Of a stretch of DNA of 64,000 bases, positions 9,872 through 62,663 are shown one piece after another. Within the stretch, counting starts at the first letter, position 1; every line of letters begins with the position of its first letter. Under the pieces are notes generated by a model. It had not been told where the DNA came from. It saw nothing but the letters and a program-made list of their open reading frames with translations, and did no database searches. Location of the stretch: contig NZ_JARKPQ010000210.1 in the NCBI RefSeq assembly GCF_029975155.1, positions 1-64,000 on the forward strand, written 5' to 3'. The position numbers and the translations under genes were made by a program. Source of the DNA: Propionicimonas sp. (GTDB taxonomy: Bacteria; Actinomycetota; Actinomycetes; Propionibacteriales; Propionibacteriaceae).

Positions 9872-10894
9872 CTACTCGGTGACCTTCTTGGCGTTCTGCA
9901 GGATGCCGGTGAGGACGTCGAGATTCTTCGCCTGCGAGGAGTAGTCCATGGGGGAGACGCGGCGCTCGTAGACCTGGCCGGCCTGCAGGGCGGCGTCGTC
10001 GGAGAAGGTGGGCTGCTTGAGCAGGTCGGCCTTCTGGTAGCCCTCGTTCGACAGCAGGATCACGTCGGCGATCTTCACCTTGCCGGCGTTCTCCCAGCTG
10101 TAGATGTCCCAGTAGTAGTCGCCGTCCGGATTGAGGTTCAGGTAGTCCACGCCGAGGCTGGAGTAGAGCTGGGTCTCGGGCTCGTCCGCGGGCTTCACCA
10201 GGTAGATGCCGTCCGCGTCGGCGTACATCGGCGCCACCTTCAGGCCCTTCTCCTTCGCCACCGCGGTCAGATTGGCTGCGGCGGTCTCGAAGGCCTTCTG
10301 GTCGGCGTCCACCTTCGCCTGATCGGCGCCCAGCGCGAGCGCCAGCTTGGTGTTGCTCTTGATCACGTCCAGGCCCGCGCCGCCGACCTTGATGGTCACG
10401 ATCGGGGCGATCGCCTCCAGCTTCTTCTGCTGCTCGAGGTCCTTGAAGCCGTAGTAGGGCTGGGTCTTGTCGATCGTGCCCTCACGGTCGGTCGGATAGA
10501 TGCCGGTGACGATCAGGTCGGGCTGCGCGGACGCGAGCGCCTCCAGGTCGATCTCGCCGTAGGTGTTGCCGGTGATCGCCACGCCGCTCATGTCGTAGTC
10601 GGCGAACCGGGTGTCGGACTTCACGTCCGTCCGGCCGAAGACGGCGACCGGCTTGACCCCGTAGCTCATCAGCGACAGCACCTGATCGGTGAAGCCGGCC
10701 ACCCTGGCCGGCACATGGTCGAGGGTCACGGTGTTGCCGATGTCGTCGGTGTAGGTCCAGCCGGACGCGCTCGACGCCGCGCTGCCTTCGGGGGCCGGGG
10801 CGGCGCTGGAGCAGCCGCCGAGGGCGAGCAGGAGGACCACGGCAGGCAGCAGGACGGCGCGCGAGGCGCGCTTCAGTGTCTCGGAGAAAGGCAT
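9872..10894 (-). CDS. Iron-siderophore ABC transporter substrate-binding lipoprotein
   Basis: A 340-residue lipoprotein. The signal peptide ends in lipobox LALGGC (Cys about residue 28), followed by a short Ala/Ser/Pro linker, then a class III periplasmic-binding fold: GNTVTLDHVPARVAGFTDQV at the start, EIDLEALASAQPDLIVTGIY in the middle and a long connecting helix. The family (FepB/FhuD-like) binds Fe(III)-siderophores at the outer membrane face and delivers them to FecCD-type permeases. The matching permeases and ATPase lie directly upstream on the same strand. A DtxR-type box overlaps the region just before its ATG, giving it its own iron-regulated promoter. The siderophore type cannot be assigned. 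Confidence 0.88.
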   Translation of the reverse strand: MPFSETLKRASRAVLLPAVVLLLALGGCSSAAPAPEGSAASSASGWTYTDDIGNTVTLDHVPARVAGFTDQVLSLMSYGVKPVAVFGRTDVKSDTRFADYDMSGVAITGNTYGEIDLEALASAQPDLIVTGIYPTDREGTIDKTQPYYGFKDLEQQKKLEAIAPIVTIKVGGAGLDVIKSNTKLALALGADQAKVDADQKAFETAAANLTAVAKEKGLKVAPMYADADGIYLVKPADEPETQLYSSLGVDYLNLNPDGDYYWDIYSWENAGKVKIADVILLSNEGYQKADLLKQPTFSDDAALQAGQVYERRVSPMDYSSQAKNLDVLTGILQNAKKVTE

Positions 10895-10899
10895 GGGAT

Positions 10900-10918
10900 T
10901 TAGGTTAGCCTATCCTTA
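10900..10918. promoter_or_regulatory. DtxR/IdeR iron box upstream of the binding-protein gene
   Basis: The 19-mer TTAGGTTAGCCTATCCTTA matches the consensus TTAGGTTAGCCTAACCTAA at 17 of 19 positions. It begins 5 bp upstream of the minus-strand start codon, so Fe-DtxR would block initiation in iron-replete cells. Confidence 0.85.
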
Positions 10919-10937
10919 CCAAAATCTGGATCCATCG

Positions 10938-11115
10938 ATGGGGCGTGAGATCCCGGGTCGAGCCCGGGATGACGATGGGTCGAGCCCGGGATGACGGCGG
11001 GTCGGGGCCGGGATGACGGTGGGTCGGGGCCAAGCCCGGATCCACCGAAACCGGTCGTCGAGCTTGTCGAGACGCGCTCGATCTGTGGATCGGGGCCAGG
11101 ATGACCGTGGGTCGG
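10938..11115. repeat. Intergenic repeats (families C and A)
   Basis: Between the ATPase gene and the binding-protein gene on the minus strand. It contains several copies of the family C half-unit (GGGTCGAGCCCGGGATGACG and degenerate forms) spaced about 21 bp apart, then a family A core at 11058-11072. It separates the two parts of the iron operon. No gene is seen. Confidence 0.65.
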
Positions 11116-11116
11116 G

Positions 11117-11944
11117 CTACACGGCGTCCGCGAGATCCCAGGTGGACGCGTCGTCCGCCGCCTCGGGTTCCAGCGGCACGATCAGCGGCGTCCCACAGCC
11201 CGGGTCGGGCAGCACGGTTGCGTGCAGCCCGAACGCGGTCGCGAGCACGTCCGGGGTGAGCACGTCCCACGGGGACCCGTCGGCGAGCACTCGGCCCTCG
11301 TGCACCACGACCAGCCGGTCGGAGTAGCGGGCCGCGAGGCTGAGGTCGTGCAGCACCATCACGATCGTGCTGCCGCGCTCGCGGTTGATCGAGCGGACGA
11401 GCCGCAGCACCTCCAGCTGGTGGGCCAGGTCGAGGAACGTCGTCGGCTCGTCCAGCAGGATCGTCGGCGTCTGCTGGGCCAGCACCAGCGCGATCCACGC
11501 CCGCTGCAACTGCCCGCCGGACAGCGAGTTCACGTCGCGGTCGGCGACCTCGGCGATGCCGGTCGCGGCCATCGCGGCCTCGGCGGCGACCGCGTCCTCA
11601 CGGGTCCACGGGCGCAGCAGGCTCTGGTGCGGGTGCCGTCCCCGCATCACGAGGTCGCGGACGCTGGTCGCCGCCGGCGTCAGCGGACGCTGCGGCAGCA
11701 CCGCCAGCCGCCGGGCGACCGCGCGGGCGGACAGGTCGCCGATCGGCGTCCCGGCCAGCCGGACGGTGCCCCGCGAGGGCGCCAGCAGCCGTCCGAACGC
11801 CTTCAGCAGCGTGGACTTGCCGCAGCCGTTGGCGCCGATCAGCGTGGTGATCGTGCCCTCCTCGACGGCCAGGTCGAGGTTCTCGAACACGGTCACCTGG
11901 TCGTAGCCGAGCGTGAGGCCGTCCGCCTCGAGTGCCAGGGTCAT
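11117..11944 (-). CDS. Iron-siderophore ABC transporter ATP-binding protein (FepC/FecE-type)
   Basis: A 275-residue ABC ATPase: Walker A GANGCGKSTLLKAFGRL (about residues 37-53), Q-loop LAVLPQRP, signature LSGGQLQRAWIALVLAQQ, Walker B TILLDEPTTFLD, and H-loop VLHDLSLAARYSD. It powers import through the two FecCD permeases encoded just upstream; its ATG overlaps the stop of the second permease by four bases (ATGA), so the three are translationally coupled. The C-terminal 30 residues are acidic and poorly conserved. Confidence 0.9.
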   Translation of the reverse strand: MTLALEADGLTLGYDQVTVFENLDLAVEEGTITTLIGANGCGKSTLLKAFGRLLAPSRGTVRLAGTPIGDLSARAVARRLAVLPQRPLTPAATSVRDLVMRGRHPHQSLLRPWTREDAVAAEAAMAATGIAEVADRDVNSLSGGQLQRAWIALVLAQQTPTILLDEPTTFLDLAHQLEVLRLVRSINRERGSTIVMVLHDLSLAARYSDRLVVVHEGRVLADGSPWDVLTPDVLATAFGLHATVLPDPGCGTPLIVPLEPEAADDASTWDLADAV

Positions 11945-20452: not shown

Positions 20453-20517
20453 ACGACAGGGGACAGGTCCCATTCCCGTTCACCTGAACGGAAACGGACC
20501 CGTCCCCTTTTCGTTCA
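20450..20517. terminator. Tandem family D hairpins between convergent genes
   Basis: Two consecutive palindromic units (20450-20482 and 20485-20517), each running from TGAACG to CGTTCA with a GGGGACAGGTCCC- or GGACCCGTCCCC-type core. The first TGA is the xylR stop and the last TCA is the reverse-strand stop of the alcohol dehydrogenase, so each unit provides both a stop codon and a terminator. Confidence 0.7.
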
Positions 20518-31437: not shown

Positions 31438-32724
31438 TTATTCGAAGACGGTGTCGCGGTCGCTGTCCGGCGCGTCCGCCTCGGCGACCCGCCGTTCGGC
31501 ACGGCGGAGGGTGCGCAGGAAGGTGACGGCGATCAGGGCTGCCGCGGCGGCGAAGGCCCCGACGCTGAGGAAGCCGGAGTGGTAGCCGTCGGCGTCGATC
31601 AGCGCTCCGGAGACACTCGATCCGGCCGCGGCGCCGATGCCGATGCCGGTGCCCATCCAGGCCAGGCCCTCGGTGAGCCGTTCGCGGGGCACCAGCCGTC
31701 CGATCAGGGTGTTGCCGTTGATCAGCGTCGGGGCGACGGTGGCCCCGACCAGCAGGCCGACGCCGGACAGCAGCAGCACCGAGTTGGCCGCGAACAGGCC
31801 GAGCGTGCACACGAACAGGGCCACCACCCCGACGGCGAACCGGCCGGGCAGGGGCGAGTGCCAGGTGCGTGCCCCGTAGAGCAGGCCCGCGAGGCCGGAC
31901 GCCGCGGAGAACACCGCCAGCACGATGCCGGACGCCGCCCGGACGTCCCACGTGCTGGCCGCGGCGACCACGCTGACGTCGATGCTGCCGAAGACGCAGC
32001 CGATCAGCAGGTTCACCGCGACCACGACGGCGACGCCCGGCGTGAACAGGATGAACTGGCGCCATGCCCTGCCGACGCCCCCGGGACGCGGCGACGGTGG
32101 CGGCTCCGTGGCCCGCTGCGAGTAGAACAGCTGGGCACCCGCCAGCGAGAGCACCACCGGTGCGACCAGGCCCGCCGCGGGGTGCACGCCGGTGGAGAGG
32201 GCGGTGGCCACCACCGGCCCGATCACGAACGTCACCTCGTCGAGGGTGGATTCGAGGGAGAACGCGGCGTGCAGTTGGTGCGGCTCGCTGGTGACGTGGT
32301 TCCAGCGGGCGCGGACGAGGGCACCGGGCGAGCCGCCGGTGAATCCGCTGACCACTGCTGGCAGGAAGAGCGTCCATGCCGGGAGCCCGAGCACGGCGAG
32401 CACGACCACGACGGCCAGCGACAGGGCGGACGCGACCGCGGCCGGGTACATCACCCGGCGCTGCCCGTACTGGTCGACGAGGTTCGACAGCAGGGCCGTC
32501 CCGACCGCCCAGGCCACCGCGTTCGCGGCGGCCAGCGCGCCGGCCAGGGCATAGCTGCCGTAGAGCGAGGAGACCATCAGCACGATGCCGAGGCCCATCA
32601 TCGCGCCGCCGGAGCGGGCCAGCATGCCCGCTGCGGAGAAGGCGAGCGCGCCCGGGATGGAGAGGATGTCACGGTACGAGCGCACCAGATGAGTCTCGCA
32701 CAGCTGGGAGCGCTCCCTGACCAT
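31438..32724 (-). CDS. MFS transporter
   Basis: A 428-residue membrane protein with about 12 helices. The cytoplasmic loop NLVDQYGQRRVMY between helices 2 and 3 is the motif A region; the halves are joined by a loop containing PPPSPRPGG. The type resembles actinobacterial sugar- or drug-efflux MFS proteins, and the substrate is not evident. An in-frame GTG at 32685 is an alternative start that would remove 13 residues; neither has a good ribosome site. It lies 117 bp downstream of the giant redox operon start, on the same strand but transcribed into the operon's upstream region, so it could feed that operon by read-through. Confidence 0.82.
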   Translation of the reverse strand: MVRERSQLCETHLVRSYRDILSIPGALAFSAAGMLARSGGAMMGLGIVLMVSSLYGSYALAGALAAANAVAWAVGTALLSNLVDQYGQRRVMYPAAVASALSLAVVVVLAVLGLPAWTLFLPAVVSGFTGGSPGALVRARWNHVTSEPHQLHAAFSLESTLDEVTFVIGPVVATALSTGVHPAAGLVAPVVLSLAGAQLFYSQRATEPPPSPRPGGVGRAWRQFILFTPGVAVVVAVNLLIGCVFGSIDVSVVAAASTWDVRAASGIVLAVFSAASGLAGLLYGARTWHSPLPGRFAVGVVALFVCTLGLFAANSVLLLSGVGLLVGATVAPTLINGNTLIGRLVPRERLTEGLAWMGTGIGIGAAAGSSVSGALIDADGYHSGFLSVGAFAAAAALIAVTFLRTLRRAERRVAEADAPDSDRDTVFE

Positions 32725-33250
32725 GTGACGGGCAGCGTGCCTGCCCGTTCAGGACCGGTCTGGGCCGGAGCCACGAGGGGTCGGGATGGCTCCGGCCACG
32801 CCGTCTCGGACTGCCTATCCCTTGCTCGCCCGATCGTGCGTCACCGATTCCCTGGAGTGCAGGGTGGGCAGGTTGAGGGGGACTCACCCGTGACCCACGG
32901 TGTCGAGGAACCCCCGGGGAGCGGGAGTTTCCTCTCTGAGGAATTCTGGCAGAAAGACAGGGCTGCTCCGGACGAAGCGGCGGGTTTGGATGCCGATTTG
33001 GTCAGCCGATTGGTACAGCCAACGCCTTCGTGACGGACACGACCGGTCGCTGAGGAGCGAGCGCCAGCGAGCGTCACGAAGGGCCTCGGGACGAACGTCG
33101 CCCGGACCGCCAGCCGACCCCACCCACCGTTCCGTGAGGAGCGAGCGTCACGAAGGGCCCTAAGGGCGGACGCCGCCTACCCCACCCAGCCGTTGGTCGA
33201 GCCTGTCGAGACCGGTCGGGATCGTCAGACCCACCTGTTCGGATGGGTTC
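32725..33250. other. 526-bp intergenic region, right half repetitive
   Basis: No convincing gene. The left 300 bp show nothing recognisable. The right part holds two reverse-orientation family B units (33050-33085 and about 33133-33158) and a family A core with one change (33197-33211), all just before the HNH gene at 33251. Confidence 0.6.
33050..33085. repeat. Left inverted repeat (family B) flanking the HNH gene
   Basis: A 36-bp sequence beginning CTGAGGAGCGAGCGCCAGCG and ending CACGAAGGGCC. Its reverse complement matches 34683-34718 at 35 of 36 positions. The pair encloses the HNH gene and spans 1669 bp. Confidence 0.7.
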
Positions 33251-34591
33251 ATGACGTTGAGCAGCACGCTTGTTCCGGCCGGTGAGGTCCTGGCCGGGAT
33301 GGGTGCGTTGTTGGACCGGCTCGATCCCGACCGCAGCAACGTGGATCCGGCGACCCGCCTGGCGTGGCTGCGTACCGCCCCGACGGTGCAGGCCCGGGTC
33401 ACCGCGCTGACTGCACAGCTGACTGGTGAGGCCGACCAGGCCAAAGCGGCGGAGGAGGCGGTGGGGACGCCGTTGGCGTCGTGGCTGGGCATGGGCGAGA
33501 ACCTGTCCCGCCGGGAGGCTGCCGGGACGCTGCGGCAGGCCCGTAAGTTGGCTCAGCACCGGTTGGTGGGTGAGGCGGCGATCGCCGGCAGGCTGGGCAC
33601 CGGCCAGGCCCGGGCGATCACCGGAGTGCTGGACGGCCTTGCTCCGCAGCTGGATGAGGCCCAGCAGCAGCGGGCTGAGCGGGTGATGGTCGACCTGGCT
33701 GGCCATCTGGACGCCGACCAACTCGCCAAGGCTGCCGGGCAGGTGTTGAAGACGGTGGTGCCGGACCGGGCCGAGGAGGCCCTGGAGCAGCATTTGCAGC
33801 GGCAGGCGGAGGCGGCGTACCGGCAGCGGAGTCCGCGGTTCTTTGTGGAGGGGGCGTCGGTCCGGTTCGATGGTTCCTTGCCCCGCCCGGCCGCCGAGGC
33901 CTGGATCGCCCAACTCGACGCCCACGCCGAGCAGGCTCGCCGGACCGCCGTGGAGCGCCGCGACCCGCTCGCCAGCACAGTGACCCTTGAACAGCGTCGG
34001 GCTGATGCGCTGATCGCCCAGATCAGCCGGCAAGGCAATAGCGGTCCTGGTAGTCCCTCGGCGCGGGTGTTGGTCATGCTCGACTACGCCAAGCTGGCCG
34101 CCGGTGCCGCCGCAGCCGGGGTGCTGCCCGATGGGCAGGGGCTGTCGGCTGGCGAGTTGCGCCGGTTGTGTTGTGACGCCGAGCTGGTTCCGGTCGTGCT
34201 GGGCGGGCCGTCGCAGGTGCTGGATGTGGGCCGGGCCGAACGGCTCGTCACCCCGCAGCTGCGGGACGCGCTCTCCGTCCGCGACAGAGGCTGTGTGTTC
34301 CCCGGCTGTGACGCCCCACCCTCACGCTGCGAAGCCCACCACATCCTGCCCTGGCACCAAGGCGGCCGGACCTGCCTGGCCAACCTGGTGTTGTTGTGCC
34401 ACTGCCACCATCCGGTGTGTGAACCGGCCCGGCACAGCATCCGCGACCAATGGCAGATCCGGACCGCTGACGACGGGCTCCCCGAGTTCATCCCACCCGC
34501 CAGGCTCGACCCGCACCGTAAACCTGTCCGGCACACCCGACACCGACACCCACCCGGGCGACCACAAGCCCGACCAACCCACGCCGCCTAA
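33251..34591 (+). CDS. DUF222 / HNH endonuclease domain protein (13E12 family)
   Basis: A 446-residue protein of the actinobacterial 13E12 repeat family. The N-terminal DUF222 helical domain (about residues 10-330) includes LSRREAAGTLRQARKL and GQARAITGVLDGL. A C-terminal HNH nuclease motif spans CVFPGCDAPPSRCEAHHILP and GGRTCLANLVLLCHCHH (about 355-400), with zinc-type cysteine pairs and the HH...N...H catalytic set. The last 35 residues are basic and Pro-rich. Such genes are multi-copy in many actinobacteria and their biological role is unsettled. Near-perfect 36-bp inverted repeats lie about 165 bp before it and 90 bp after it, suggesting an element-like unit. Confidence 0.85.
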   Translation: MTLSSTLVPAGEVLAGMGALLDRLDPDRSNVDPATRLAWLRTAPTVQARVTALTAQLTGEADQAKAAEEAVGTPLASWLGMGENLSRREAAGTLRQARKLAQHRLVGEAAIAGRLGTGQARAITGVLDGLAPQLDEAQQQRAERVMVDLAGHLDADQLAKAAGQVLKTVVPDRAEEALEQHLQRQAEAAYRQRSPRFFVEGASVRFDGSLPRPAAEAWIAQLDAHAEQARRTAVERRDPLASTVTLEQRRADALIAQISRQGNSGPGSPSARVLVMLDYAKLAAGAAAAGVLPDGQGLSAGELRRLCCDAELVPVVLGGPSQVLDVGRAERLVTPQLRDALSVRDRGCVFPGCDAPPSRCEAHHILPWHQGGRTCLANLVLLCHCHHPVCEPARHSIRDQWQIRTADDGLPEFIPPARLDPHRKPVRHTRHRHPPGRPQARPTHAA

Positions 34592-34939
34592 CCCCGCGGC
34601 GGGGCTGGCCGCGACGCCTGCGTGAGGGGATCCCGGACATCCACCCGGGACGACACTGGAGGTTGTCCTCGCGTCGGTCGGTGGCCCTTCGTGACGCTCG
34701 TTGGCGCTCGCTCCTCAGGGGGTGTGGTGGGGTGCGCGACCCGACCCCGCCTACTGTCATCCCGGGCCCCGCCCCGGGATCCCCGGTGCGCGGGCCCTTC
34801 GTGACGCTCGCTGACGCTCGCTCCCCGGGGACCGCTTGGAGTGCGGCCCGCCTCCTCCGTCCGTCCACAGGGCCGACGCTGGCTCTCGCTCCTCGGGGAC
34901 CGTGGGTGGCCGACCAAAACGCCGGCGCTCGGCGGGGTG
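34592..34939. repeat. 348-bp repeat-filled intergenic region
   Basis: Contains three forward-orientation family B units (34683-34718, about 34793-34833 and a decayed one near 34868) and a family C word near 34757-34787 (TCATCCCGGGCC...CCGGGATCCCC). It lies between the HNH gene and the convergent LuxR-type gene. No gene is seen. Confidence 0.6.
34683..34718. repeat. Right inverted repeat (family B) flanking the HNH gene
   Basis: Begins GGCCCTTCGTGACGCTCG and ends GCTCGCTCCTCAG; it mirrors 33050-33085 with a single mismatch. Similar but less exact copies occur near 42264, 59930, 60150, 62340 and 62388. Confidence 0.7.
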
Positions 34940-36598
34940 TCAGGAGCGTGGTACCAGGCCCAGCTCGTGGGCCTTGCGGACCAGTTCGACGCGGGAGGAC
35001 GCGCCGAGTTTGCCGCGCAACGACACCACCTGCTTGCGGACGGTGTTCACCGAGACGTACAGCTGGTCCGCGATCTCCTTCGCGGTGGCCGGGCCGGCCA
35101 GCAATGGCAGCAGGACCTTCTCCCGCGGGGTCAGCCGGACCAGGTCCTGGGTGGCCGCCGCCTCCGCGCGCAGGCCCGCGAAGGCGCCGCCGCGCACCGC
35201 GCGGGCGAGGAAGCAGTCGGTCCCGTGCTGGTCCTCGTGCTGGGCGAGCAGTGCGGACCGTGCGGTGGGCGGCAGGACGGCGAACGGCACGAGGGTGTGT
35301 GCCTCCTCGCAGACCACGCAGGCCGCTGCGGCGGCGTGCGCAGCCCCGTCGTCGCCGGCGAGCCAGAGCGCAGCGGCCCGGACGGCGTGGAGCTGAGCGC
35401 GGTCGTCCAGCGACGTGTGCAGCGAGTAGATGCCGTCCTCCGCGGCGGCGATCGCGCTCTCCGCGTCGCCAGTGCGCAGGTACAGCAGGGCGGCGGGCAC
35501 GGCCGAGACGGCGTCGTCCGCGTGCTCGAGGAGTGCCTCGATGAGTTGTCCGGCCCGATTGGACGCCCCGGTGGCGAGCAGGAGTTCCGCGCGGGCGCGG
35601 AGCAGCAGCCCGCTCCAGGGGCCGTCGACGCCGGTGGCGTAGGTGGAGGCGATCGCGTCGAACTGGGCGAGCGCGCTCTCCGCATCGCGCCACAGGACGC
35701 CGACGGTGCTCCTGACCAGGGCGTGCATGGGCTGGAAGTCGAACCACGCCGCGATCGGACGGTGGTCGTCGTGCAGCGCGAGGTGCCGCTCCGCCTCCGC
35801 CTGGTCGAGGCGCCGTGCCGCGGTCGCCGCCCGGACGAGGTGCATGCCCGGCTCCAGCCAGGCGGCGGCGCGGCAGTCGTGCTCGGCGTGACGGGCCAGG
35901 AACCGCTCCACCGGCCCATGGTGCTGGCTGTCGCCGGACGCGACGGCGACGGTCGCCATCACCACGGCGGCGAGGAAGCCGGGCAGGCCGCAGTTCTCGC
36001 TGAGCAGCATCGCGAGGTCGGCGTTGTGGCGGGCGGTGCGCCAGTCCGCGCGCGGCAGCGACATCAGAGCCGCGGTGGCGTGGAAGAAGCTGATCGCCCA
36101 GGCACTCACCACCACACCGGAGCGGGCGGCTTCCCCGATGACGGCGCTGACCCGGTCGTAGGCGGTCGGGTACCCGTCCGGCTGATGGGCGCTCGCGACA
36201 GCCGGGACGGTCGCCTCCGCGAGCATCCACAGCGTCCCGCCCACGACGGCGGCCTCACCGGCCGGGTGCAGCGACCAGCTCGCGTGCAGCGTGCGTCCGT
36301 CCCGGACCAGTGCGATCGCCATCTGATCGAGGTCGACCAGATCGGCGACGGGGTCGTAGGCGGCGGCGAGCGCCGCGGTGTAGCTCAGGGTCGGACGGAG
36401 GGCCCGCTGGTCCGCCGGAACGCCGCGGAAGGCATGGCGGACCTGCTCGTCCCGCATCAGCGTGGCGGGGGAGCTGCTCAGCCAGATCGCTTCGAGGCCC
36501 GCCCCGTCGAGGGCGTCCTGCGCCCAGGCGGCGTTGGCGGAGTCGCCGTGGAGAACGTGCGGAGCCGGACCGGGCGGCCGGCATTCGGGCATGGGCAT
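34940..36598 (-). CDS. LuxR-family transcriptional regulator with long helical sensor region
   Basis: A 552-residue protein. The last 65 residues form a LuxR/GerE helix-turn-helix (LTPREKVLLPLLAGPATAKE, then LYVSVNTVRKQVVSLRGKLG). The preceding 480 residues are Ala-rich helices resembling TPR-type repeats (for example ALVRSTVGVLWRDAESALAQ and ASNRAGQLIEALLEHADDA). No Walker A motif is present, so it is not a typical ATP-binding LAL regulator, though its N-terminal region may be a remnant of that architecture. The target and signal are unknown. It is monocistronic; the divergent neighbour is a small membrane protein gene. Confidence 0.85.
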   Translation of the reverse strand: MPMPECRPPGPAPHVLHGDSANAAWAQDALDGAGLEAIWLSSSPATLMRDEQVRHAFRGVPADQRALRPTLSYTAALAAAYDPVADLVDLDQMAIALVRDGRTLHASWSLHPAGEAAVVGGTLWMLAEATVPAVASAHQPDGYPTAYDRVSAVIGEAARSGVVVSAWAISFFHATAALMSLPRADWRTARHNADLAMLLSENCGLPGFLAAVVMATVAVASGDSQHHGPVERFLARHAEHDCRAAAWLEPGMHLVRAATAARRLDQAEAERHLALHDDHRPIAAWFDFQPMHALVRSTVGVLWRDAESALAQFDAIASTYATGVDGPWSGLLLRARAELLLATGASNRAGQLIEALLEHADDAVSAVPAALLYLRTGDAESAIAAAEDGIYSLHTSLDDRAQLHAVRAAALWLAGDDGAAHAAAAACVVCEEAHTLVPFAVLPPTARSALLAQHEDQHGTDCFLARAVRGGAFAGLRAEAAATQDLVRLTPREKVLLPLLAGPATAKEIADQLYVSVNTVRKQVVSLRGKLGASSRVELVRKAHELGLVPRS

Positions 36599-41899: not shown

Positions 41900-42309
41900 C
41901 CGGCGACAATGACGAGGTGAGCAGTCAGGCCAACCGTCATCCCGGCGAACGTCGGGATCCCCGCAGCCGACCTGAGGACGCTTCCGGGATCCCGGGTCAA
42001 GCCCGGGATGACGAGGGTCAAGCCCGGGATGACGAGGTGAGCAACCCGGCCAACCGTCATCCCGGCGAACGCCGGGATCCCCGCAGCCGACCTGAGGACG
42101 CTTCCGGGATCCCGGGTCAAGCCCGGGATGACGAGGGTCAGGCCCGGGATGACGAGGGTCAAGCCCGGGATGACGAGGGTCAGGCCCGGGATGACGAGGG
42201 TCAAGCCCGGGATGACGAGGGTCAGGCCCGGGATGACGAGGGTCAAGCGGCGAGGGACGCCATTCGTGACGCGCCGCTGGTGTCTCGCGCCGCTCCTCAG
42301 GGGCCGCTT
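41900..42309. repeat. 410-bp intergenic minisatellite: 2 x 120-bp units plus 21-bp tandem array
   Basis: Two 120-bp units begin at 41911 and 42031 (each starting GACGAGGTGAGCA) and differ at a few positions. Each carries a family C hairpin (GTCATCCCGGCGAAC...GGGATCCC). The second runs into six full 21-bp units at 42114-42239 (start GGGTCAAGCC or GGGTCAGGCC, end GGGATGACGA) that strictly alternate A and G at one position, plus a partial seventh. The last 50 bp hold a family B-like unit running into the NifJ start. Both strands are stop-free because 21 is a multiple of three. Confidence 0.85.
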
Positions 42310-59910: not shown

Positions 59911-60190
59911 CCCCACCGCTTTCCGCGCGGGCCCCTCGTGACGCCGTCCGGCTCGTTCCTCGCCAGCCGGCTCCTCAGGGAGCGGTGGGGGGCAGTGCAG
60001 CGGTCCCAGAGGAGCGGCCGCGGCGAGGGACGAGCGGCGCTCGCAGGTGACCGTTCGTCATCCCGGCGGACGCCGGGATCCCGGTAGGGGCTTGGAGAGG
60101 TGACTCTCGGGATCCCGGGTCGAGCCCGGGATGACGATAGGGCGGGGCCCTTCGTGACGTCGTCCGGCTCGTTCCTCGCCGGCCGACTCG
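59911..60190. repeat. 280-bp intergenic region with families B and C
   Basis: Two family B-like units (about 59930-59990 and 60148-60205) surround a family C hairpin (CGTCATCCCGGCGGACGCCG onward to GAGCCCGGGATGACG, 60056-60137). Convergent 3' region of frcK and the NifX-like gene. No gene is seen. Confidence 0.6.
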
Positions 60191-60541
60191 TCAGGGAGCG
60201 GGTGGGGCGCTGTGGGCGGCCACCGCGGCCAGCACGGACGCCTGGGCGTCGCCGGGGGTCGCCGGGAGCAGCGGAATGCCCATCGTTGCCATCACTCGCT
60301 GCATGCCCTCGCCCATGTGGTCCACGACGACGGCCTCGATGCCCTGCTCCTTCAGGAAGCGGACGATGCGCGCGTGGTGGGAGCCGTGCGTGCCTTCATC
60401 GTGGGAGGCGTCCCAGGCGACCTCGTGGATCTGCCAGGCGCGCACCTCGCCAGCCGTGACGTCGGCGACGCCGATCCAGTGGGCGCGTCCCCAGGCGGCG
60501 GCCGACTGTCCGTCCGGAGTGACCGGAGTGGCGACGATCAT
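60191..60541 (-). CDS. NifX/NifB-type (dinitrogenase iron-molybdenum cofactor-like) domain protein
   Basis: A 116-residue protein with the NifX/Nif11-like RNase H-type fold used for FeMo-co binding: MIVATPVTPDGQSAAAWGRA, HWIGVADVTAG, and FLKEQGIEAVVVDHMGEGMQ, then MATMGIPLLPATPGDAQASV. No nif genes are near. Such stand-alone proteins occur widely in non-fixing bacteria and may bind Fe-S or metal cofactors. It lies 65 bp downstream of tal on the same strand, beyond a terminator-like hairpin. ATG 60541 is chosen over an in-frame ATG 36 bp upstream. Confidence 0.75.
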   Translation of the reverse strand: MIVATPVTPDGQSAAAWGRAHWIGVADVTAGEVRAWQIHEVAWDASHDEGTHGSHHARIVRFLKEQGIEAVVVDHMGEGMQRVMATMGIPLLPATPGDAQASVLAAVAAHSAPPAP

Positions 60542-62194: not shown

Positions 62195-62663
62195 TTGGTC
62201 ACCTCCAGTGCTGGACGGTCCGGCAGGCAACGGGCGTACCTGCCGAACCGTCACGACTCTCTTCTTCCTATTCAACTCTGGTCCGCCGAACGGGGCCGGT
62301 GGACCATCGAGATCCCGGGACGGCGCGGGCCGGGGTGGGCCCTTCGTGACGCCGTCCCGGGGAGCGGTTGGGGAGGTCGGGGGGCCCTTCGTGACGGCTC
62401 GCTCGTTCCGCGCGAGCCTCCTCAGGGAGCGGTTGGCCCCGCTCCGGAGCGGCTCCCGGGTCGAGCCCCCGACCGCTGGTCGAGTCCCCGACCGCTGGTC
62501 GAGCTTGTCGAGACCACCACCGCGTCTCGACAAGCTCGACGACCGGTTGCCCGGACGATGGACGGCCACGACTCTCTCCGTGTCTGCAAGCCCGGGATGG
62601 CGGGGAGCCGATGGGTCATTCCCGGCTCCCCGCCACTGAACCCAGTACCCACCTTGTCCAGGA
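62195..62663. other. 469-bp repeat-rich intergenic region
   Basis: No gene. It contains family B-like units near 62340 and 62388, a tandem of CGACCGCTGGTCGAG words (about 62470-62500), a family A hairpin (62499-62513 with 62525-62539), and a family C word near 62588. It separates the sugar-binding protein gene from the rpiB-tal operon on the same strand; the promoter of rpiB must lie in its left end. Confidence 0.65.
62499..62539. repeat. Family A hairpin repeat
   Basis: TCGAGCTTGTCGAGA and its exact reverse complement with an 11-bp loop, the same arrangement as at 9758-9799. It is preceded by two tandem GACCGCTGGTCGAG words. Confidence 0.65.

Follow-up and report, generated by a model that had tools for sequence, protein, structure and literature searches.

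The window, the 64,000-nucleotide stretch of Propionicimonas sp. DNA analysed here, belongs to a draft genome assembly of 404 contigs with 8.31% contamination. On its plus strand lies an intact 13E12-type gene (33251–34591) whose 446-residue product has a DUF222 domain (E = 7.7e-21) and an HNH domain (E = 7.6e-5). The HNH residues C348, C353, H363, H364, N378 and H387 are all there and are invariant in a five-row alignment, and no Pfam transposase domain was found in the protein. An AlphaFold model of the gene product, computed from a five-row alignment, had a mean pLDDT of 42.6 and was set aside. Genome-wide, we detected ten DUF222–HNH matches that correspond to nine genes, multicopy and dispersed. 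The nearest named relatives found are four loci of Microlunatus speluncae (48–49% over residues 290–430) and one actinobacterial MAG; a plasmid and phage search returned five plasmid records and one phage record, each below 60% identity. We conclude that the window gene, with its two domains and its multicopy, dispersed unit, belongs to the known DUF222/13E12 family.

The gene sits between two arms (33050–33085 and 34683–34718) that are reverse-complementary at 35 of 36 positions. The initial annotation had described both this near-perfect 36-bp inverted repeat and the intact gene inside it, and both stand: exact inverted 18-mers within 32000–36000 numbered 14 against a mean of 0.02 in 50 Markov resamplings, far above chance. 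The arms lie in two hairpins of one family, family B or REP-B, at 33048–33085 (+) and 34683–34720 (−). The weaker family B copies that had also been listed were recovered, one of them truncated and inside the arms (33132–33159, +) and the other outside them (34793–34830, −), as were the lone copies, all (−), at 42260–42302, 59932–59980, 60148–60196 and 62385–62427. The copies at 59932 and 60148 belong to a long-stem class, and REP-C copies are found close to the last one, at 62497 and 62523. Between 59932 and 62541, REP-B, REP-C and a GTCATCCCGGG palindrome are clustered without a DUF222 gene.

Upstream of the gene, a REP-C hairpin, TTGGTCGAGCCTGTCGAGACC (33193–33213, +), is followed 37 bp further by the ATG. 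A degenerate PafBC-type promoter motif, CGTCAGAC-N8-TCGGAT, occupies 33223–33244 (+) and fails the strict form of the motif. No match in an Rfam scan of 32000–36000 reached its gathering score, the top one standing at about half of the threshold. We rejected a hammerhead-like reading (CTGAGGAG...CGAA), as its conserved parts come in the wrong order for the hammerhead motif.

Hairpin structure and copy number

Family B copies consist of CCCTGAGGA, a variable inner stem-loop and then GTCACGAAGGG, and CCCT and AGGG are able to pair as an outer stem. The inner stem-loop varies in sequence among copies but mostly stays self-pairing: its Watson–Crick fraction was 0.785 against a shuffled maximum of 0.638 for 68 distinct inserts, 26 of which are fully paired over five positions. 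For GGTY-type hairpins, the fraction was 0.923 against a shuffled maximum of 0.815 (26 inserts, 19 fully paired). The window genome (5.0 Mb) holds 148 exact copies of the REP-B gapped motif, and the 18-mer core with up to two mismatches occurs at 110 places; reversed controls gave 0 in both cases. The gapped motif was also present in the relatives G012 (45 copies), G002 (24), G001 (2) and G005 (1), again with 0 in reversed controls, and was absent from the remaining 16 of 21 genomes searched. We conclude that family B is a REP-like hairpin with a covarying stem, that is, a short palindrome conserved in structure and dispersed in high copy.

The plan GAG...CGA is shared by hairpins with other outer stems, namely REP-C (GGTC/GACC) in the window genome and GGTT/AACC and GGCT/AGCC types elsewhere in the order. 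Read by eye, CGTC, TGTC or CCTC comes after the inner stem and yet is enclosed by the outer stem. REP-B copies are mostly single (20 of 24), whereas in genome G040 most hairpins come in pairs or clusters and 6 of 25 are single. In sampled stretches of the window genome (L216–L235), 13 of 24 REP-B matches, some of them weak, fell in called noncoding DNA and 11 in called genes, which indicates that REP-B also enters the coding DNA of other genes.

Hairpins also occur inside DUF222 genes. In two genes of the window genome (on contigs C264 and C8) and one gene of G012, the linker that precedes the HNH part contains an in-frame REP-B. The C8 gene (L053) and its G012 counterpart (L205, on G012:C18) are 75% identical and have REP-B at an equivalent site in two species; the two stems are not the same, yet each remains mostly self-complementary. 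The four M. speluncae loci have a short hairpin as an inverted pair in the same pre-HNH linker, and in genome G073 REP-C copies lie inside the open frame at at least four of nine loci.

Enrichment beside DUF222–HNH genes

We compared the surroundings of DUF222 genes in the window genome with 20 arbitrary stretches, each some 20 kb long, from a set of nine large contigs, and considered intergenic regions no shorter than 100 bp. Genes were called with a home-made dicodon script, which can assign DUF222 genes the wrong strand; orientation counts for DUF222 genes use the HMM strands. REP-B was found in 7 of 15 intergenic regions adjacent to DUF222 genes and in 10 of the 142 sampled ones (Fisher 1.9e-4), and REP-C in 8 of 15 and 12 of 142 (Fisher 6.3e-5); these p-values overstate the significance because paralogues of one genome are copies and their loci are not independent. 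The density of REP-B was 2.36 per kb beside DUF222 genes and 0.32 per kb in the sample. Neither the RAYT-type repeat REP-A (0 of 15 against 9 of 142) nor palindrome E (1 of 15 against 15 of 142) was enriched. Within 1.5 kb, REP-B accompanied 8 of 9 DUF222 genes, 0 of 8 rve genes, 0 of 2 RAYT genes and 1 of 30 TetR genes; the corresponding counts for REP-C were 7 of 9, 0 of 8, 0 of 2 and 5 of 30 (the TetR control comprised 30 loci of 40 matches). Hairpins beside other genes of this genome followed no orientation rule (32 '+' and 30 '−' on the 3′ side, 10 and 8 on the 5′ side).

The initial annotation had named two findings that would speak against a link between gene and repeat. One was that the repeats be equally common beside unrelated genes, and family B proved commoner beside DUF222–HNH genes than beside other genes. 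The other was orthologous loci that keep the gene and lack the repeats; most DUF222 genes of relatives do lack hairpins. The orthologous locus itself was not found, the window gene's neighbours (MFS, LuxR) being absent from all retrieved loci except the window's own.

Association and orientation in other genomes

A strict hairpin pattern within 1.5 kb was detected at 19 of 30 DUF222 loci (sampled from 72 matches) and 6 of 30 TetR loci (from 287 matches) in six hairpin-rich genomes. G040 and G067 represent a second family of the order. In G040, 28 of 40 DUF222-adjacent intergenic regions had a hairpin compared with 5 of 84 sampled regions; the figures for G067 were 8 of 16 and 0 of 76, the latter from a thin sample with four pattern matches in 200 kb, all within called genes. 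With the strict pattern and HMM strands, a hairpin within 1 kb upstream was present for 25 of 26 genes in G040 and for 9 of 13 in G067. Across 63 loci of five genomes, the nearest upstream hairpin was '+' at 33 and '−' at 6, and seven loci had a downstream hairpin.

A more flexible pattern, which like the strict one overlooks the GGCT-type hairpins of G047 and also misses those of G012 (both detected otherwise), was applied to 158 loci of 23 genomes and gave an upstream hairpin at 47, the nearest being '+' at 43 and '−' at 4, and a downstream hairpin at 16 (11 '−', 5 '+'). The TetR control with this pattern, both sides counted, gave 5 of 30 in the window genome and 5 of 30 in six others, which indicates that part of the single hairpin matches are chance. 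The upstream majority was '+' in eight genomes (the window genome G000, G003, G007, G008, G020, G040, G050 and G067), the loci of G007 and G008 being partly syntenic, and '−' in two (G014 and G073). In G047, 6 of 14 genes had a GGCT-type hairpin upstream, in each case '+'. Another 33 DUF222 loci outside the 158 yielded three upstream hairpins, all '+', of which the one in G082 is convincing and two look like coding chance, and two downstream hairpins; 30 of the 33 had no hairpin flank.

Other observations count against the link. G014 is rich in hairpins (195 pattern matches) and had a '+' upstream hairpin at 0 of 9 DUF222 loci (of 11 matches); G048, with 239 pattern matches, had none at its two DUF222 loci; and flanking hairpins were absent at all 23 DUF222 loci of G030, G034, G041 and G018, where compact DUF222 units occur. 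Since many DUF222 units have no hairpin, the hairpin is not required. REP-B lay within 1 kb of 2 of 5 DUF222 genes in G012 and of 1 of 8 in G002, though the latter genome has REP-B. A regular expression and an inverted-repeat scan that returned almost nothing from 28 loci of relatives had been tuned to REP-B or to arm pairs. Over 77 genomes, DUF222 and hairpin counts correlated weakly (rho 0.33; within families 0.59, 0.00, 0.23 and −0.04), the high DUF222 counts being lower bounds with about 25 candidates scored per genome. We conclude that the association of DUF222 genes with hairpins is real: repeat-specific in the window genome, it is seen again in a second family of the order.

Borders of the dispersed unit

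The window gene and its paralogues on contigs C84 and C386 share a block of 78–79% identity that corresponds to about 33190–34784 (+) of the window. It starts at the REP-C hairpin and extends beyond the first downstream REP-B, with the second downstream REP-B (34793–34830) immediately past its end. In these three closest paralogues, the REP-B at 33050 falls outside the common block and the one at 34683 within it, and flanks beyond 33190–34784 are non-homologous except for further repeats. Homology between the paralogues on C79 and C352 (78%) begins at a '+' REP-B and stops with the ORF, 7 nt before the end of the stop codon. We found no terminal inverted repeats common to copies and, by eye, no obvious target duplication at the borders, and no paralogue in this genome has both arms as its ends. 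We conclude that unit borders coincide with hairpins, though not as an inverted pair.

These borders revise the proposal of the initial annotation that the gene is part of an HNH homing-like or MITE-linked unit ending in family B repeats. A dispersed unit does exist. Exact ends at 33050 and 34718 are not supported, because the left arm lies outside the paralogue-shared block, and 'MITE' does not fit, given the lack of shared terminal inverted repeats and of an obvious target duplication.

A further set of copies comes from G067, in which 10 of 13 DUF222 genes are paralogues with 83–88% identity across all 45 pairs. Their common block stops no more than about 10 nt past the stop codon. Nine of the ten start at a '+' hairpin, and the tenth (L317) has the same leader without one. 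On the unit tree, which has some weakly supported nodes, the adjacent hairpin switches between the AGGCGC-stem and GGTTGC-stem classes no fewer than three times, which argues that the hairpin is not simply inherited. Such changes are easier to reconcile with separate landings behind different hairpins, or with hairpin conversion, than with plain inheritance.

Single loci showed further features. Behind the DUF222 gene of L049 (C386, about 10385–11652), a downstream module of REP-B and its flanks is repeated about four times in tandem. Upstream of the unit at L320 (G067) is a tandem row of 5′ half-hairpins (GGTGGTTGAGGAAGGCGC...) followed by one complete hairpin. The locus pairs L187/L195 and L191/L196 of the close relatives G007 and G008 match upstream and diverge about 310–318 bp past the HMM match, near the end of the gene, which gives the downstream border the look of a breakpoint.

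Promoter motif upstream of DUF222 genes

The published PafBC motif is TGTCRG-N10-TA-N3-T, and in M. tuberculosis five putative HNH endonucleases are among the mitomycin C-induced, RecA-dependent genes (PMC8151990); promoters of the PafBC type are described from other Actinobacteria as well (PMC8223512). A strict PafBC-type motif occurred upstream of DUF222 genes at 22 of 154 loci from 23 genomes, and the reverse strand gave 0 of 154. The core TGTCRGTG was present at 85 of 154 loci compared with 14 of 154 on the reverse strand, 11 of those 14 in G047 and G014. Four of the nine DUF222 genes in the window genome pass the strict motif. Judged by motif matches, about half of DUF222 genes thus appear to have a DNA-damage promoter core of the PafBC-like type.

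RAYT genes and their repeats

The window genome has two Y1_Tnp (RAYT) genes, L094 (C313) and L095 (C19); each lies between inverted copies of a distinct, GGTGAACGGGAATGGGACCTGTCCCC-like repeat family, and REP-B and REP-C were not found at either locus. RAYT genes set between inverted copies of their own repeat are a local example of the classical REPtron, whereas the protein among the hairpins studied here is a DUF222–HNH protein instead of a Y1/HUH RAYT. The window itself contains six copies of the RAYT repeat family, at 20459, 20485, 23418, 23499, 23537 and 50228. With the Pfam model, Y1_Tnp matches were found in none of nine hairpin-rich genomes and in 5 of 14 control genomes; unless missed by the model, RAYTs are therefore not moving hairpins in those nine genomes now.

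Discussion

The reading that we favour, at somewhat short of even confidence, is a damage-inducible, homing-like HNH element with the hairpin as its left end or landing site. The window gene would be one copy of a dispersed, compact DUF222–HNH element, made up of promoter and ORF and about 1.5–1.6 kb long. DNA damage would induce the HNH nuclease, presumably in this organism too; the nuclease would cut DNA, probably at or near the hairpin, and repair or recombination would then copy the unit in the fashion of a homing element. In lineages rich in GAG...CGA hairpins, the '+' hairpin would flag the unit's left border, either as a landing site or as the left end itself. To the observed association, its orientation, the unit borders, the covariation of the hairpins, the promoter motif and the lack of detectable RAYTs in nine hairpin-rich genomes, this reading adds the use of hairpins in unit movement, which we infer. 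A more speculative and rather doubtful version would cast DUF222 (13E12) HNH proteins as nucleases dedicated to a second REP superfamily (GAG...CGA) that does not depend on RAYTs, an HNH-based and damage-switched REPtron. By nicking or cutting at a hairpin, the nuclease would insert its unit behind that hairpin and would multiply solitary hairpins in trans.

It is quite possible that the association is passive, hairpins having spread by some other route into relaxed DNA and been caught and retained ahead of expendable DUF222 genes and in their linkers, with duplication of gene and hairpin together creating both the enrichment and the common orientation. Paralogues do share upstream blocks, hairpins included, hairpins also lie inside other ORFs (the 11 of 24 sampled REP-B matches, a set in which some are weak), and hairpin-free DUF222 genes are common. 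Passive spread sits poorly, however, with the lack of enrichment of REP-A and palindrome E of the same genome beside DUF222 genes, with the recurrence of the same orientation under different outer stems (CCCT, GGTC, GGTT and GGCT) in different genomes, and with the class switches in G067, on a tree with some weak nodes. A hairpin that insulates or tunes the DUF222 promoter and takes no part in movement would match the upstream position, the common orientation and a distance that is near-constant within several genomes; we consider it unlikely, as it leaves unexplained the downstream and ORF-linker hairpins and the coincidence of hairpins with borders.

Mobilization by classical REPtrons, in which RAYT (Y1/HUH) transposases move the hairpins and the DUF222 link is incidental, is very unlikely. 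The two Y1_Tnp genes of the window genome, with inverted repeats around each, speak for it, but the repeats around both belong to a different family and nine hairpin-rich genomes have no Y1_Tnp match. We regard as highly improbable an insertion sequence or MITE with terminal inverted repeats at 33050–33085 and 34683–34718: the complementarity of the arms suggests such an element, but the left arm lies beyond the block shared by paralogues, none of which ends in both arms, and the protein is without a Pfam transposase domain.

The homing-like HNH element that we favour can be set beside several known systems. The 13E12 or REP13E12 copies of M. tuberculosis are likewise multicopy, dispersed DUF222/HNH genes; they are described as gene-conversion hotspots (87 events) that 'lack defined biological function' (PMC13061034), and REP13E12/HNH endonuclease/DUF222 is counted among repetitive elements (PMC10589994). 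The cited parts of these two papers mention no hairpin repeat, whereas a class of hairpins marks the unit borders in several genomes here. REPtrons, composed of a RAYT and GTAG-type REPs, likewise place a nuclease gene beside short dispersed hairpins (PMC3733652); in our case, the nuclease is HNH and not HUH, the gene is multicopy, the hairpins are chiefly one-sided and the RAYTs of the same genome have separate repeats. CGTC-tagged REPs (Di Nocera 2013) are short palindromes followed by CGTC, TGTC or CCTC, for which the cited portion of the paper reports no dedicated transposase, and its main text does not contain 'actinobacteria' or 'actino' (PMC3733652). The hairpins here differ in that a 4-bp outer stem encloses the tag. 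With HNH homing endonuclease elements, the unit has in common a compact, dispersed nuclease gene with intact HNH residues, whereas no intron, intein or defined target site was seen here.

We found no report of a link between DUF222 genes and hairpins in the open-access literature searched on HNH, DUF222 and REP13E12 and on REP repeats. By these searches the hairpin link appears new; the DUF222/13E12 family itself was already known. A physical, oriented and repeat-specific link between a nuclease and a hairpin allows one testable hypothesis for both, namely that the nuclease may recognise the hairpins, and puts the DUF222–HNH proteins forward as a candidate, open to testing, for the partner that scattered hairpins lack.
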